A DNA stretch of 64,000 nucleotides from an uncultured Dehalococcoidia bacterium (GTDB lineage Bacteria > Chloroflexota > Dehalococcoidia > Lucifugimonadales > Lucifugimonadaceae), in NCBI GenBank assembly GCA_913052475.1, contig CAJXEJ010000004.1, forward strand, positions 1 through 64,000. The letters are read 5' to 3'. Shown here one piece after another: positions 42,010-49,575 of the stretch (position 1 is the first letter of the stretch; each line of letters begins with the position of its first letter). The notes under the pieces were generated by a model, which was not told the origin of the DNA, made no database searches, and saw only the letters and a list, made by a program, of their open reading frames with translations. Made by a program: the position numbers and the translations under genes.

Positions 42010-42288
42010 ATGCCTAACGATTCCGAAAAATACATCGAACAGATAGCCTACGGCTACGACGCCATCGCCGACGCCTATTTCGACAACTATCGAATCGACA
42101 TTCCCAGTCAGGTCACGAAATTCGTAGATGGATTCAATTCGCAACTGTCACCAGGTAGTACGGTGCTCGAACCGGGCTGCGGTAATGGGTTTCCGTTCAC
42201 CGCACAACTGACAAAACGTCATCGGGTAACCGGTATCGACGTCTCAACGGCTCAGATCGAAAAAGCCCGAGCAGAAGTACGTCTTTGA
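42010..42288 (+). pseudogene. SAM-dependent methyltransferase, truncated
   Basis: 92 codons. The N-terminal helix GYDAIADAYFDNYR and the SAM-binding motif I VLEPGCGNGFPFTAQL, with motif II VTGIDVSTAQIEKAR, are clear. The frame then ends at TGA 42286-42288, where a normal class I methyltransferase would continue for another 100 or more residues. No continuation is visible in the other frames before 42375, so this is a truncated gene. Confidence 0.65.
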
Positions 42289-44845: not shown

Positions 44846-45411
44846 ACCGACCGAGTAGGCGAATACGCACTGTCTAACGATAAATTCGGTACCCATTTAC
44901 GGGTTATAGCGCACCTTTCCGAACTTCAGGCAAGCCAGGTTCGCAAGTTTCACAAGCTACTTGGCGACGACGATCTTGCCACCAAACCTCACTGCTCGAT
45001 CGACAATTTCTGTGAGCTTGATGATGTAGACGCAGTCAAATCTGCGCTTCGAGAGATCGCCTCACAACATCGGTTTTTCGAAACGAGCATTAGTTCCGAC
45101 GAGCTAAGGATCAGGTCTTCTGGCTGCGTCTAGACGATTAAACCCACCGAATAACATCTCGCGATGCAAGCTACGGTCGTTCAGGCAATGCTCCCAATCA
45201 CAAACCGAATTCGGCCAGCCGGTAACTACTGGCCACACACAACGATGGTTCTCGATGCGAAACCTGAAGACTTCCGTTTATGGAGCCGAACATGGTAAAA
45301 ATCGACATGACAAGCATGGCAAAATTCGAAGCGATTTCACTCATTGGGCGCATCGGTCTTGCCAGAGGTGGCGGCTACGAAGTCATCGAAGACTACCCAC
45401 TACTCGGCTAG
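44846..45411 (+). pseudogene. 2H phosphoesterase (2'-5' RNA ligase-like), frameshifted
   Basis: Plus-strand frames give pieces in the right order. The first is AHLSELQASQVRKFH, then TKPHCSIDNFCEL with the first H-x-S/T motif, ending at TAG 45133. From about 45160 another frame has NYWPHTTMVLDAKPEDFRL with the second H-x-T motif, ending at TAA near 45295. A third frame to 45411 has the terminal ISLIGRIGLARGG and YEVIEDYPLLG. Two H-x-T/S motifs define the 2H family of cyclic phosphodiesterases. The gene is broken at least twice. Confidence 0.5.
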
Positions 45412-45605
45412 CTGATCGTTCGCCACTTCCGCCACACCAGCACCACCACCGCAATTGGAAATAGCACGATAACAGCGCCCAGAACGATCACCATCACACC
45501 CGATGAAACACCAAGCACGTGATCGATCTTCGCACTCAGCCACTCCCATAGATCGGGATCGATCGGTTCTGAATGGTGCAACAACGTTCCAACTGGATTC
45601 GCCAT
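45408..45605 (-). CDS. small single-TM membrane protein following MFS gene
   Basis: 65 aa from the ATG at 45605, one nucleotide after the MFS stop codon. A polar, Trp-containing N-terminal part (EPIDPDLWEWLSAKIDHVLG) precedes one strong TM helix (VMVIVLGAVIVLFPIAVVVLV) and a basic end WRKWRTIS. It is clearly translationally linked to the MFS transporter. I do not recognise the family; an accessory membrane subunit is a guess from context. Confidence 0.55.
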   Translation of the reverse strand: MANPVGTLLHHSEPIDPDLWEWLSAKIDHVLGVSSGVMVIVLGAVIVLFPIAVVVLVWRKWRTIS

Positions 45606-45606
45606 A

Positions 45607-46947
45607 TCACTCCTCATCCGTTATCGACTCATGCAAAGCAACCGCAGCACCCTCCGGCACGGGTGAATAGCGAACTGAATCCTGCTTCTCACGAATCGAC
45701 AACGAAACGATCCCCGCTCCCAACAGCGCCAATGCGCCTATCGCAAACGTAATGTCGTACGATCCCCACACCGTGAACGCCCACCCAAACAACATCACTG
45801 CCGCCGCGCCACCGAGCTGGTGCGCCATATTCGCAAAACCAAACAACGTACCGAGGTTCCGAACACCATACACATCAGCAGTCAACGAAGCAGTCAACGG
45901 AACCGTTGCAAGCCATGACATCCCACCGACAACCGCAAAGGCCCAAATCGCCGTTGATCCCGGCAAAACAATCAGTAAAACAAACCCCAATCCCCGAACC
46001 AGATAGACAGCTCCAAGCAAATTCTTCCGCTGCCACCGATCCGAAAGAAGCCCAACAACAAGCACGCCACCGGCGTTGATACCGCTCAACACACCAAATG
46101 CCAGCGCGGCAGTTCCGGTCGTAATATCCTCGCTAATCGCCCATCGCACGAAATGTACTGCAATCGAAGCCGTCGTAATTCCGCAAACGAAATAAGCGAT
46201 CGACAACTGCCAGATCGGCTTCGAGTTAAGCGAATCCCGCCATTCCTCAGCGAATTTGGGACCAACCGGTCTGACGACCACTTCAGTTTCTGTCGAAGCC
46301 GAAGATTCTCCATCATCGATCTTCAAACCCATATCTTCAGGGGTGCTTCGAACAACAATTAGCAGCAGCGGAACACCTAGCGCAAGTGCTAACCCTCCAA
46401 CCAACCAGTGCGCAGTCTGCCAACTGAATTCGACCAACAAGTAACTCAGGAAAGGTACGACAATCAGCCCACCAACCGACCCGCCAGCAATCAGAACGGC
46501 CATCGCCATTCCGCGCTTCTTCTCGAACCAGCGAGCAACGATCACTCCAGTCGTAGCTGGAGAAATTCCACCTGCTGCAAACGAAATTACAAAACCGGAA
46601 AGAGCGATCAATCCATAAATATTCGTTACATACGCAACGCCGATAGTCGCCAGCGCCATCACCGTCAGTGAGATGACAACGACGCGACGCCCACCATAGA
46701 TATCAGTGAGCCGGCCAACAATCGGCTGCGACACACCATTTACAAGCCACCCAACTGAAGCAGCGATCGAAACCGTCGCGGTGGAAATGCCCCAGTCCTG
46801 CTCCCACGTCTTGACGAACACACCAAAACCCTGACGAGAACCGATCGCTAAAAACGTGGCAAAGAACAACGCGGCAATGATGTACCAGCCGTAGTAGATA
46901 CCCGATTTTTTCGAAGAACCGTCCAGCTCAGACCGGTTGTTACTCAT
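45607..46947 (-). CDS. MFS transporter (OFA/monocarboxylate-type)
   Basis: 446 aa, 12 TM helices. SRQGFGVFVKTWEQDWGISTATVSIAAS and GRLTDIYGGRRVVVISL (the motif-A loop between TM2 and TM3) are as in oxalate/formate and monocarboxylate MFS porters. A central cytosolic loop follows TM6 (GLKIDDGESSASTETEVVV). Substrates of this group are small organic acids. Its start overlaps the small TM gene upstream by 8 nt (ATGAGTAA), and a second small TM gene follows after 1 nt. The amidohydrolase gene lies just upstream in the same operon. Confidence 0.85.
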   Translation of the reverse strand: MSNNRSELDGSSKKSGIYYGWYIIAALFFATFLAIGSRQGFGVFVKTWEQDWGISTATVSIAASVGWLVNGVSQPIVGRLTDIYGGRRVVVISLTVMALATIGVAYVTNIYGLIALSGFVISFAAGGISPATTGVIVARWFEKKRGMAMAVLIAGGSVGGLIVVPFLSYLLVEFSWQTAHWLVGGLALALGVPLLLIVVRSTPEDMGLKIDDGESSASTETEVVVRPVGPKFAEEWRDSLNSKPIWQLSIAYFVCGITTASIAVHFVRWAISEDITTGTAALAFGVLSGINAGGVLVVGLLSDRWQRKNLLGAVYLVRGLGFVLLIVLPGSTAIWAFAVVGGMSWLATVPLTASLTADVYGVRNLGTLFGFANMAHQLGGAAAVMLFGWAFTVWGSYDITFAIGALALLGAGIVSLSIREKQDSVRYSPVPEGAAVALHESITDEE

Positions 46948-47080
46948 CTAGCTCTCGAATCTTGGTCGACCATTCTTTGCATTCAGCAAGTCGGCCTTGC
47001 TCATACCCGGAGCGGCGGCCCATGTAATAAATCAACGAAGCAACTATCAGCGCAAGCGGAAGTACAACAAGAAAATGCAT
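46940..47080 (-). CDS. 46-residue single-TM protein, overlapping the MFS start
   Basis: ATG 47080 opens a 46-codon frame. One TM helix, FLVVLPLALIVASLIYYM, begins at residue 3, and a basic then acidic soluble tail follows: GRRSGYEQGRLAECKEW, then STKIRELDE. It stops at TAA 46942-46940, overlapping the MFS ATG by 8 nt. It starts 24 nt after the amidohydrolase stop. Tight overlap on both sides and a clear TM-plus-tail layout argue for a real gene despite the small size. Confidence 0.6.
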   Translation of the reverse strand: MHFLVVLPLALIVASLIYYMGRRSGYEQGRLAECKEWSTKIRELDE

Positions 47081-47104
47081 AAGAAAATCTGGCTAGACGG
47101 CCAG

Positions 47105-47989
47105 TTAATTGACTCCCATAATCTCGACTGCGTCGCGATTGATAATCCCTTCGATCGCATCCGAAGGAATCTCAGGCAAGTGGTGGTCCTTCGCAAACTT
47201 GGTTAAGCTACGCAAGTGGTCGATATTGTCCTGCGGACGCGTCACTGGCCAGTCGGATGCAAACAAAATCTTGTCGGTCACACCCCACTCGTAGAACAAC
47301 CTCATTCCCTGCCAGAACGAATACGGTCGATAATATTGCGCTGACACATCGGCCCACACGTTGGGGTGCTTGCGAACCACCGCCAAGCAGTCGTTCTGCC
47401 ACGGATGACCCAAGTGCGCTAGAACCATCGTCAAATTCGGAAACGCCATCGCAACCTTGTCAGAAGTCAACGGATGAGCATACGTGAGAGGCGCCTCAGT
47501 CATCGGCGATGTCCCCTGATGAAACACAATTGGGATTCCATCAGCTTCGAGGCGGGCGAATAGCTCGAACGCTTCTTTTCCCGTGGGATCGAAGTCTTGG
47601 TAGTTCGGCCCCAGCTTGATTCCTTTTACCCCCAGATCACCAACGCACCGGTCGTACTCGTCGTTCCACTTTGGGTCGAGCGGGTGTAATGACATGAACG
47701 GGATGATTTTGTCGGGCGCGTACTTTGCAGCCTCCGCAGCGACATCGTTGTGATTCAGTACGTCCGCCCAACCCTCGGTCCGGAGCACACGTTCGTCAGG
47801 ACGCCAAGGTCGAGGTGCGATACCAAAAATGAACGCCTTGTCGACCGGTCCCATGTCGCGAAGATAATCATCGATCGAATTAGTCAGCTGTACCGTCTCG
47901 CCCGAACGCATGGTCGTTTCGACCTGCATTTCGTCCGGCGGAACCATTTCTTTGTGACTCGGAAGGTGAGTATGTACATCAACGATCAT
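47105..47989 (-). CDS. amidohydrolase family 2 protein (TIM-barrel metal hydrolase)
   Basis: 294 aa from ATG 47989, which has GGAGATAG upstream and directly begins with the metal motif MIVDVHTHLP (H-x-H). Other blocks are GVKGIKLGPNYQDFDP, MVLAHLGHPW (metal His) and KILFASDWPVTRP with the final metal Asp. These are the conserved sites of amidohydrolase-2 enzymes (ACMSD/lactonase-like decarboxylases and hydrolases). The frame is open further upstream to 48103 without family similarity. It is the first gene of a four-gene operon with two small TM proteins and the MFS. Confidence 0.85.
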   Translation of the reverse strand: MIVDVHTHLPSHKEMVPPDEMQVETTMRSGETVQLTNSIDDYLRDMGPVDKAFIFGIAPRPWRPDERVLRTEGWADVLNHNDVAAEAAKYAPDKIIPFMSLHPLDPKWNDEYDRCVGDLGVKGIKLGPNYQDFDPTGKEAFELFARLEADGIPIVFHQGTSPMTEAPLTYAHPLTSDKVAMAFPNLTMVLAHLGHPWQNDCLAVVRKHPNVWADVSAQYYRPYSFWQGMRLFYEWGVTDKILFASDWPVTRPQDNIDHLRSLTKFAKDHHLPEIPSDAIEGIINRDAVEIMGVN

Positions 47990-48165
47990 TGATTCTATCT
48001 CCAGCATGCTACGACAACGCCACTCGACTGCAGGTAGACGATGGACGCAAATATTACGCCTGAAACCAGCAGTTATGTCCGTCTGCCTGTTCGATACGCA
48101 CACATTGCCGAGCCATCATCCTACCCCCGTCGAAGGACCGCAATCTCCATCCATTACCCACCACC

Positions 48166-48190
48166 GTCATCCTGAACTTGATTCAGGATC
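48166..48190. repeat. REP-like palindrome
   Basis: ATCCTGAA (48169-48176) and TTCAGGAT (48182-48189) pair around CTTGA. It lies in the gap between the divergent amidohydrolase and the MFS gene and belongs to the same family as 1362-1482. The rest of 47990-48312 shows no gene. Confidence 0.65.
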
Positions 48191-48312
48191 TCGCACAGCA
48201 ACAATCGCACACCTCAGGATCAAGCCCGTTCCATCCGACCACCCCCCACACCCGCACCGGGCATGTATACCCTGCTCCCGTGACCTCACCATCTCAAAAC
48301 AATCAGGAAGAA

Positions 48313-49575
48313 ATGCGCCACTGGCGCAACCGCGTCCTCTTCAGCTACGCCGCCTTCTACCTGTTCGTCTACATGGGCAGATTCAACCACTGGCCAGCCG
48401 GACCGGTGATGCGCGAACAACTCGACTTCACTCACATTGAAATCGGGATAATCAACGCCTGCCTGCTCTGGGGATTCGCCATCGGCGACATGATCCACGG
48501 CAGAATCGCCGAAATCTACGGCTATCGATTCTGGCTTGTAGTAGGCACTCTCACTTCGGTCGCACTAAACTGGATCACCAGCTTTGGAACGAGCCTTTGG
48601 AGCATCGCCATTCCGTGGGGACTCAACGGTTTCGCGAACGCAACGGTGTGGTCGCCTGCCATCGGAATGCTCGCCCAGTGGTGGCATCGATCGCAACGCG
48701 GACGTGTGATGGGACTCGTCGGCGTCTCTGCCGGATCAGCGATGCTTGTCATGTGGCTTGTCACCGGTTGGACCGTCACTGAATTCGGCTGGAGAGCCGC
48801 CTTCAGATACCCACCGCTCCTCATGGTCCCGGCCGCAATCTCGCTCTTCTTCCTCGTCCGAGACCGTCCATCCGACATCGGCCTCGAAGACCTCGATCAG
48901 ACAGGACACATTCGCCCTGCTAAATCACAGACAATACCTCCCGCTGATCATCATGAGCCTGTCGAAGGGTTTCGACAAAACCCAGATGGCGCACTTATCG
49001 CCTACCGTGTCCTCTTCTCAAACTGGCGATTCGTCGCCACCTCGCACGTAAAAGGACTCGAAAACGTCGTCCGATATGGGCTTACGACCTGGGCGCCGCT
49101 CTACTACTTCGAAGAAGCCGGGTTATCGATCGGAACCACGGCTCTTGTAACCGTTGCGTTACCCATCGGATACCTCGCGGCACCGCTCGTATCAGGCTGG
49201 ATCTCCGATGTGCTCCTCGATGGACGTCGCAGTCCGATGATCGCCGCATCCGCCCTCATCTCAGCCGCTGCCCTCATCGGACTCGCCATCGTCCCTGCCG
49301 AGAACGTCTACGCCGGAGTCGCGTTGCTCTTCATCGGTGCCTTCGCCATGAGCCTCTCGATGTCATCAACGCTCGTAGTCGACATGGCAGGACCAAAATA
49401 CGCGGCCACCGCCTCAGGTGTCCTAGACGGACATGGCTACGTCTATGCCGGTGGCCAGGCCCTCATCTTCGCCCTCCTCCTAGACACTTCAGGTGCACCT
49501 TGGCACCTCGTGTTCCTCGGCATGGCCGCCGCCCGCATTCTCTCCGCCCTAATCGCGTGGCGAGTAAGGCTTTAG
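48313..49575 (+). CDS. MFS transporter (OPA/glycerol-3-phosphate transporter-like)
   Basis: 420 aa from ATG 48313, with AGGA upstream (a GTG at 48280 in the same frame lacks an RBS). It has 12 TM helices. The first half has YLFVYMGRFNHWPAGPVMREQ and GDMIHGRIAEIYGYRFWLVVG (the MFS motif-A loop), and QRGRVMGLVGVSAG follows TM4. This recalls the phosphate-antiporter (UhpT/GlpT) subgroup; the substrate is unknown. The loop between TM6 and TM7 contains HHEPVEGFRQNP, encoded by a palindromic REP-like repeat (48946-48983). Confidence 0.8.
   Translation: MRHWRNRVLFSYAAFYLFVYMGRFNHWPAGPVMREQLDFTHIEIGIINACLLWGFAIGDMIHGRIAEIYGYRFWLVVGTLTSVALNWITSFGTSLWSIAIPWGLNGFANATVWSPAIGMLAQWWHRSQRGRVMGLVGVSAGSAMLVMWLVTGWTVTEFGWRAAFRYPPLLMVPAAISLFFLVRDRPSDIGLEDLDQTGHIRPAKSQTIPPADHHEPVEGFRQNPDGALIAYRVLFSNWRFVATSHVKGLENVVRYGLTTWAPLYYFEEAGLSIGTTALVTVALPIGYLAAPLVSGWISDVLLDGRRSPMIAASALISAAALIGLAIVPAENVYAGVALLFIGAFAMSLSMSSTLVVDMAGPKYAATASGVLDGHGYVYAGGQALIFALLLDTSGAPWHLVFLGMAAARILSALIAWRVRL
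48946..48983. repeat. REP-like element inside the MFS coding sequence
   Basis: TCATCATGAGCCTGTCGAAG continues into GGTTTCGACAAAACCC. GTCGAA and TTCGAC pair around GGG. The same element type lies intergenically at 29167. Here it is in frame and adds about 12 residues to the cytosolic TM6-TM7 loop. Confidence 0.6.

Follow-up and report, generated by a model that had tools for sequence, protein, structure and literature searches.

A conserved single-transmembrane protein as a putative accessory subunit of an MFS transporter in Dehalococcoidia

A four-gene operon with two small membrane proteins

The window, the whole analyzed stretch of 64,000 nucleotides from an uncultured Dehalococcoidia bacterium, carries on its minus strand, from 47989 to 45408, a four-gene operon that encodes, in this order, an amidohydrolase, a small protein with a single transmembrane helix (TM) denoted S1, a transporter of the major facilitator superfamily (MFS) and a second small single-TM protein, S2 (Table 1). 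Four tightly linked minus-strand genes had been reported in the preliminary description of this DNA, and the coordinates are exact: a gap of 24 nt separates the amidohydrolase gene from S1, the S1 stop and the MFS start overlap by 8 nt, and MFS and S2 are spaced by 1 nt. The overlap suggests that translation of S1 and of the transporter is coupled. The amidohydrolase starts at a conserved ATG at 47989; the GTG at 48103, which appears in the list of open reading frames, is a non-conserved start. Around the block, genomes of the genus encode a DHDPS-family protein, a zinc alcohol dehydrogenase, an aldo/keto reductase, an epimerase and an F420-type oxidoreductase. A candidate frame-broken copy of a neighboring gene family (c9) near 45.2 kb obtained no tblastn support and was discarded.

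Table 1. Features of the operon and the evidence for each
Feature	Coordinates	Strand	Evidence
Amidohydrolase	47105..47989	-	Amidohydro_2 group, lactonase/decarboxylase-type TIM barrel
S1, 46 aa, single-TM	46940..47080	-	alignment of 15; pN/pS 0.38
12-TM MFS transporter, SfMCT/OxlT/MCT-like, 446 aa	45607..46947	-	PF07690, E 2.3e-53
S2, 65 aa, single-TM, proposed MFS accessory subunit	45408..45605	-	pN/pS 0.37; linkage; co-occurrence; AF2
S1 stop/MFS start, 8-nt overlap ATGAGTAA	46940..46947	-	sequence
S2 motif HHSEPIDPDLWEW, residues 10-22, predicted extracytoplasmic	45540..45578	-	column conservation and charge
S2 transmembrane helix, residues 35-64, Pro50 central	45414..45503	-	AF2 and conserved Pro

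The amidohydrolase belongs to PF04909 (Amidohydro_2; E 1.2e-35, 124.1 bits with a cut-off of 26.4) and displays the N-terminal metal motif VDVHTH. Its best relative of solved structure is 3irs, the uncharacterised BB4693 (E 1.5e-11), followed by 5-carboxyvanillate decarboxylase.

The transporter matches PF07690 with 181.8 bits (cut-off 33.4), has the 12-TM MFS fold and falls in the MCT/oxalate-formate group. Its closest sequences of solved structure are SfMCT (6g9x, E 2e-15), then MCT2 and MCT1, whereas by fold it is closest to OxlT (8hpk; Z 43.7 over 384 residues, 2.7 A) and human SLC37A4 (Z 43.3), with SfMCT at Z 39; a Foldseek comparison with SfMCT gave an E-value of 4.5e-14. Both SfMCT and OxlT share just ~20% identity with the transporter of the window. 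The best-scoring NCBIfam family is NF049980, the SfMCT L-lactate transporter equivalog, with a score of 121.4 bits that falls below the equivalog cut-off of 320.

Relatives of this transporter carry organic anions, and the genes that flank the block seem to resemble those of sugar-acid catabolism; together, these two lines point to an organic acid as the transported compound, perhaps a sugar acid or its lactone. This putative substrate is reasonable because, in addition to the flanking genes, a cultured relative shows better growth with fuconate, rhamnonate, their lactones and ascorbate (PMC10444878), and the amidohydrolase belongs to a lactonase/decarboxylase group.

Both small ORFs encode genuine proteins

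S1 and S2 are genuine proteins under protein-level selection. Within the genus, the mean pN/pS is 0.37 for S2 (18 sequences) and 0.38 for S1 (14 sequences), compared with 0.23 for the MFS gene and 0.10 for the amidohydrolase, all these values being rough because synonymous sites are close to saturation; for both small genes, pN is below pS in every pair and variation is highest at third codon positions. The preliminary description had named a lack of conservation, or of a protein-coding substitution pattern, as the observation that would speak against its proposal, and what we observe is the opposite, a conserved S2 and the coding pattern in both genes. The S2 motif, moreover, is retained at less than 30% identity. 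Using a mechanical rule (40-90 aa, one strongly hydrophobic stretch, start at -10 to +70 nt from the stop of the preceding gene), we detected a small hydrophobic ORF after 58 of 72 orthologous MFS genes, compared with 14 of 342 control genes of at least 200 aa from the same loci, and all these 14 ORFs are S1 or S2 themselves.

S2 is inherited together with one MFS clade

A profile derived from the S2 alignment (A1) was used to search 60 related genomes at E<1e-10. We identified S2 in 41 of these, exactly the 41 that encode an ortholog of the MFS transporter (best E <= 2.6e-89). The 19 genomes that lack the ortholog, with a paralog (E >= 4.3e-44) as their best MFS match or no match at all, are without S2; this set includes one member of the genus, three members of the family and 15 genomes of other families. 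For unrelated genomes, the chance of such agreement would be ~5e-16 (1/C(60,19)), a figure that the relatedness of the genomes makes indicative only. Alignment A1 was partly built from the same loci; the absences, one genome (G047) and the class-level loci described below are independent of it. There is one convincing S2 per genome, though most of the genomes have several to more than 10 MFS matches.

The MFS alignment, scanned against a collection of 84,980 species genomes, yielded 138 relatives. We retained the best 80, and all of these carry the labels Chloroflexota, Dehalococcoidia or SAR202, except for one MAG named Spirochaetaceae. A search of MFS-encoding genomes for the small ORFs as conserved neighbors had been proposed as a check, and for S2 it succeeded: S2 accompanies the orthologous MFS gene in 78 of these best 80 loci, within 70 nt of the MFS stop in 66 of them and at a distance of 131-2307 nt in 12. 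The 80-locus scan and the 60-genome search share several assemblies, so that the two counts overlap. S2 is also retained in two lineages where an inserted gene of the polysaccharide deacetylase family separates it from the MFS gene.

Searches that started from S2 gave the same picture. When 294 genomes sampled from the class were searched, further S2 sequences came solely from this order and one additional family. Of the 15 such loci recovered through S2 alone, 13 have the ortholog of the MFS gene immediately upstream; of the remaining two, one holds the distal half of a gene interrupted by a contig end and the other contains runs of N. A search of 301 genomes across the phylum revealed no convincing S2 outside the order already known, and the remaining hits were marginal and located mostly in larger frames; other phyla were covered by the MFS scan only.

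Four MFS copies lack an adjacent S2 (L066, L067, L131 and L163 in our numbering of loci). In the FastTree phylogeny of the MFS proteins, these copies are nested in S2-bearing clades, and therefore S2 is ancestral and the absences represent secondary losses. The respective genomes all keep S2 beside another MFS copy, which in the case of L163 is truncated. Thus, S2 is gained, kept and lost together with one MFS clade: its genetic association with this clade is obligate, whereas that of S1 is only lineage-restricted.

Predicted structure and topology of S2

S2 consists of the motif HHxExxDPxLxEW, a short helix, the TM helix and an Arg-rich end. Among 78 sequences, the first His of the motif is kept in 78, the second His in 68, the acidic residue (E/D) in 75, Asp in 76, Pro in 72, Leu in 78 and Trp in 69; the mid-membrane Pro is kept in 74 of the 78. 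The mean net charge is -3.4 on the N-side and +2.6 on the C-side, the C-side being more positive in 77 of 78 sequences. Given this acidic N-side and basic C-side, the N-terminus is predicted to be located outside and the C-terminus inside. The genome of the window belongs to SAR202 group I, a group of Dehalococcoidia described as having a monoderm envelope (PMC10444878), and accordingly the outer side of the cell membrane faces the cell surface.

AF2 modeled S2 alone (52 rows) with a mean pLDDT of 90, as a helix at residues 17-31, which is merely mildly amphipathic, and the TM helix at residues 35-64, a block with pLDDT of 87-98. When the MFS protein and S2 were modeled as one readthrough chain from a paired 31-row alignment, the porter was well modeled (pTM 0.81), the TM helix of S2 received a pLDDT of ~88-95 and the N-terminal segment of S2 was left unplaced (~31-50); because S2 alone is modeled equally well, the chain adds no evidence of docking. 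Neither S1 nor S2 matches any Pfam or NCBIfam family above the cut-off, and in a search of solved structures with the S2 profile, all matches, such as those to small helices of photosystems, were weak. Judging by these comparisons, S2 is a new single-TM family.

S1 is a local addition next to the amidohydrolase

S1 contains one TM helix and a conserved tail, GRRxGYxxGRxDERKEWSTKIRELDE, which is the most conserved part of the protein (alignment of 15). The C-side of the helix is positive (+1 to +4), and therefore the tail should be cytosolic. S1 is present in 14 of the 18 loci of the genus and in a few relatives within the family (L057/L198, L203), and is absent from the rest of the clade; judging from this distribution, it is a lineage-specific, local addition. 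In the best 80 of the 138 MFS relatives, there are 12 loci with S1, and the amidohydrolase gene lies beside S1 in 11 of these. The twelfth (L179) ends at the contig edge, and the same contig, read as L031, contains the C-terminal end of an amidohydrolase upstream of S1. Wherever this can be checked, then, S1 is adjacent to the amidohydrolase, which suggests one of two roles, that of a tether for the enzyme or that of a local modulator.

The amidohydrolase itself adjoins the MFS gene in ~24 of the best 80 of 138 loci; elsewhere, the MFS-S2 pair is found with other genes. The earlier suggestion that the transporter feeds an amidohydrolase is thus compatible with the gene order in this lineage but does not extend to the others. 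A role of S2 as a partner of the amidohydrolase was considered and rejected because S2 persists at loci that lack the enzyme.

A proposed two-component transporter and alternative explanations

We consider it likely, on the strength of these comparisons, that S2 is a dedicated accessory subunit of a lactate/oxalate-type MFS transporter and that S1 is a younger second helper. For S2, this reading derives from the co-occurrence (41/41 versus 0/19) and linkage (78 of the best 80 of 138 relatives) with the transporter, from the persistence of S2 when another gene is inserted before it or the amidohydrolase is missing, and from the relationship of the porter to MCT1, which depends on the single-TM ancillary proteins basigin and embigin (PMC6819133). 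The proposal of small accessory subunits in the preliminary description is thereby strongly reinforced for S2 and weakly for S1, which is found in 12 of the same best 80 loci.

Under this model, the MFS protein would be a 12-TM organic-anion porter of the SfMCT/OxlT/MCT type, with S2 as its small subunit. S2 would be inserted with the acidic, His-containing N-terminal segment outside and the Arg-rich end inside, its TM helix packing against the porter within the membrane and the HHxExxDP segment with the short helix positioned near the outer mouth of the porter. The outer part might stabilize the porter or influence how it gates, how it responds to pH or which substrate it prefers. S1, the younger helper confined to the Lucifugimonas lineage, would probably use its charged cytosolic tail to dock the porter to the co-encoded amidohydrolase or to regulate the porter. 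A bolder and rather unlikely version is that the near-invariant His/Glu/Asp segment of S2 at the mouth of the porter gathers protons or a metal ion, or selects the substrate, which would make the pair an obligate two-component MFS system, with S1 as a third component that links the enzyme in Lucifugimonas. If so, S2 would supply an essential external element, representing a working principle undescribed for bacterial MFS porters.

Several other explanations have to be weighed against the subunit model. The most tenable of them, which we regard as possible but tentative, holds that S1 is a membrane tether by which the amidohydrolase is kept close to the porter and the imported substrate is passed on, with S2 unconnected to the enzyme. 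This fits the occurrence of S1 solely beside the amidohydrolase gene, the position of its best-conserved part in the predicted cytosolic tail and the independence of S2 from the enzyme, but such a tether would be dispensable, given that the amidohydrolase occurs without S1 in many loci (L046, L047, L038, L152, L155, L158, L166 and others). The tether reading concerns S1 alone and is compatible with S2 being a subunit of the porter.

Alternatively, S2, and S1 as well, could regulate the abundance of the porter by controlling its access to a membrane protease such as FtsH, either handing it over or protecting it. Strict co-occurrence and 1-nt spacing would be expected of a turnover regulator too, and this is a known mode of action of small single-TM proteins, with MgtR/MgtU-MgtB and MgtS-MgtA as examples (PMC10710835). 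However, the invariant His/Asp/Pro/Trp motif of S2 is predicted to lie outside, away from the cytosolic protease domain, and co-translation with the porter would suit a subunit better than a condition-dependent regulator, so that we consider abundance control unlikely. Even less probable is a scenario in which the actual partner of S2 is a third component, such as an extracytoplasmic binding protein, and S2 is simply co-inherited with the transporter: the motif, predicted to face outward, could bind another protein, but the MFS-S2 pair has no further neighbor that recurs constantly from family to family. Finally, there is a negligible probability that the small ORFs lack a protein function and merely reflect chance or features of the RNA (translation coupling, mRNA end), a notion that is refuted for S2 and very unlikely for S1 in view of its pN/pS: short ORFs with tight spacing can arise randomly, and there is a weak hairpin in the amidohydrolase-S1 gap, but the hairpin is not conserved, the coding pattern holds in every pair and at third positions, the S2 motif survives extensive divergence, S2 is found up to 2.3 kb from the MFS gene, and 328 of the 342 control genes lack such an ORF. 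The same lack of conservation led us to reject this hairpin as an attenuator.

Relationship to known small partners of transporters

MFS porters are usually regarded as single-polypeptide machines. To our knowledge, bacterial MFS transporters with a conserved, dedicated single-TM partner have been little studied. The remark in the preliminary description that such an arrangement is not familiar from described systems nevertheless goes too far, given NF047966 and the ancillary subunits of MCT1: MFS porters with small subunits are already known, and it is the S1 and S2 families themselves that, by sequence comparison, are new. What seems new here is the S2 family, its strict partnership with the MFS transporter and the distinctive motif at its predicted external location.

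NF047966 (MFS_OXA_tail_dom, the NCBIfam 'MFS transporter small subunit') is, by its name and description, a tiny part of oxalate-type MFS transporters. Its model spans 31 positions, whereas S2 proteins are 60-80 aa long and possess the predicted extracytoplasmic HHxExxDP segment. The family was not listed for any of 52 S2 and 15 S1 members at E<=1 (cut-off 24 bits), so S1 and S2 do not belong to it; the model does respond, as probe peptides composed to resemble the family score 54-55 bits. A search of 40 related genomes with NF047966 gave no match, the control genomes were likewise without a match, and the absence is no proof.

MCT1 and MCT2 are related to the transporter of the window by both sequence and fold. 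S2 resembles basigin and embigin in being a single-TM partner with a conserved outside part and a short charged cytosolic end, a likeness that relies on the predicted topology of S2. However, basigin and embigin are large immunoglobulin-domain glycoproteins (PMC6819133), whereas S2 has no immunoglobulin domain and no detected similarity to basigin or embigin and shares one operon with its porter. A further MFS protein with a partner is MFSD1, which depends on GLMP (PMC6819133). With 65 aa, only helices in the AF2 model and no meaningful sequence relative in the PDB, S2 lacks the combination of immunoglobulin domains and one TM that defines these proteins. AcrZ, MgtS, SgrT and MgtU are small proteins that bind transporters and tune or stabilize them, and such partners as are tabulated in PMC10710835 act on RND, PiT, PTS and P-type systems, none of those tabulated on an MFS porter; S2 has no sequence relation to AcrZ, MgtS, SgrT or MgtU.

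In the literature searched, no paper uses the phrase 'MFS transporter small subunit', and none mentions amidohydrolase together with SAR202 and the major facilitator superfamily. In the deep ocean, SAR202 bacteria are an abundant group. They encode many MFS porters with unknown substrates, as illustrated by SAR202 JH545 with its 42 proteins in COG0477 (PMC10444878), and the conserved S2 singles out one orthologous porter among these many. The S2-MFS pair would pose the bacterial counterpart of the MCT-basigin question, that is, what a single-TM helper does for an MCT-like carrier. All four genes are present in the cultured Candidatus Lucifugimonas marina of the same genus (locus L172), which makes the system experimentally accessible.

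MFS-S2 loci in related genomes

A gene of the polysaccharide deacetylase family (PF01522) separates the MFS gene from that of S2, the 65-aa single-TM protein, in the loci L058 and L060, and also in L148 and L154. In genome G604, the locus L212 combines an amidohydrolase gene and an intact S2 gene with an MFS gene cut to approximately the first 80 residues, and L163, on another contig, carries a full-length MFS gene without S2; this arrangement reflects either decay following gene duplication or misassembly. The SAR202-type MFS-S2 locus is also present in a record labelled Spirochaetaceae bacterium bin103 (L171), which is probably a metagenome bin under the wrong label.

Features adjoining the operon and elsewhere in the window

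Additional features of the window
Feature	Position	Strand	Remarks
92-aa ORF	42010-42288	+	matches Methyltransf_25 positions 1-41 of 97
End of ORF (..LIGRIGLARGGGYEVIEDYPLLG)	45280-45411	+	converges on S2
Hairpin, 5-bp, G+C-rich, T-rich tail	47089-47104	-	directly 3' of amidohydrolase stop
Second MFS gene (neighbor family c5)	48178-49575	+	divergent from adjoining amidohydrolase

The convergent ORF overlaps the S2 stop by a few bases and may be a genuine gene because a similar peptide, LIGRIGPSRGGEYEILENYPLLG, is found at the equivalent position beside S2 in L008. The hairpin has a terminator-like pattern; its conservation was sought in relatives and not found. Three tandem amidohydrolase copies, with 68-71% identity to that of the window, lie upstream of the MFS-S2 pair in L050 / L180 (G036). 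The second MFS is distantly related, and comparison of loci shows that its position next to the amidohydrolase is kept in most of the genus. The similarity of the 92-aa ORF is confined to the initial portion of methyltransferase domains, and its sequence is possibly that of a truncated or frameshifted methyltransferase gene.
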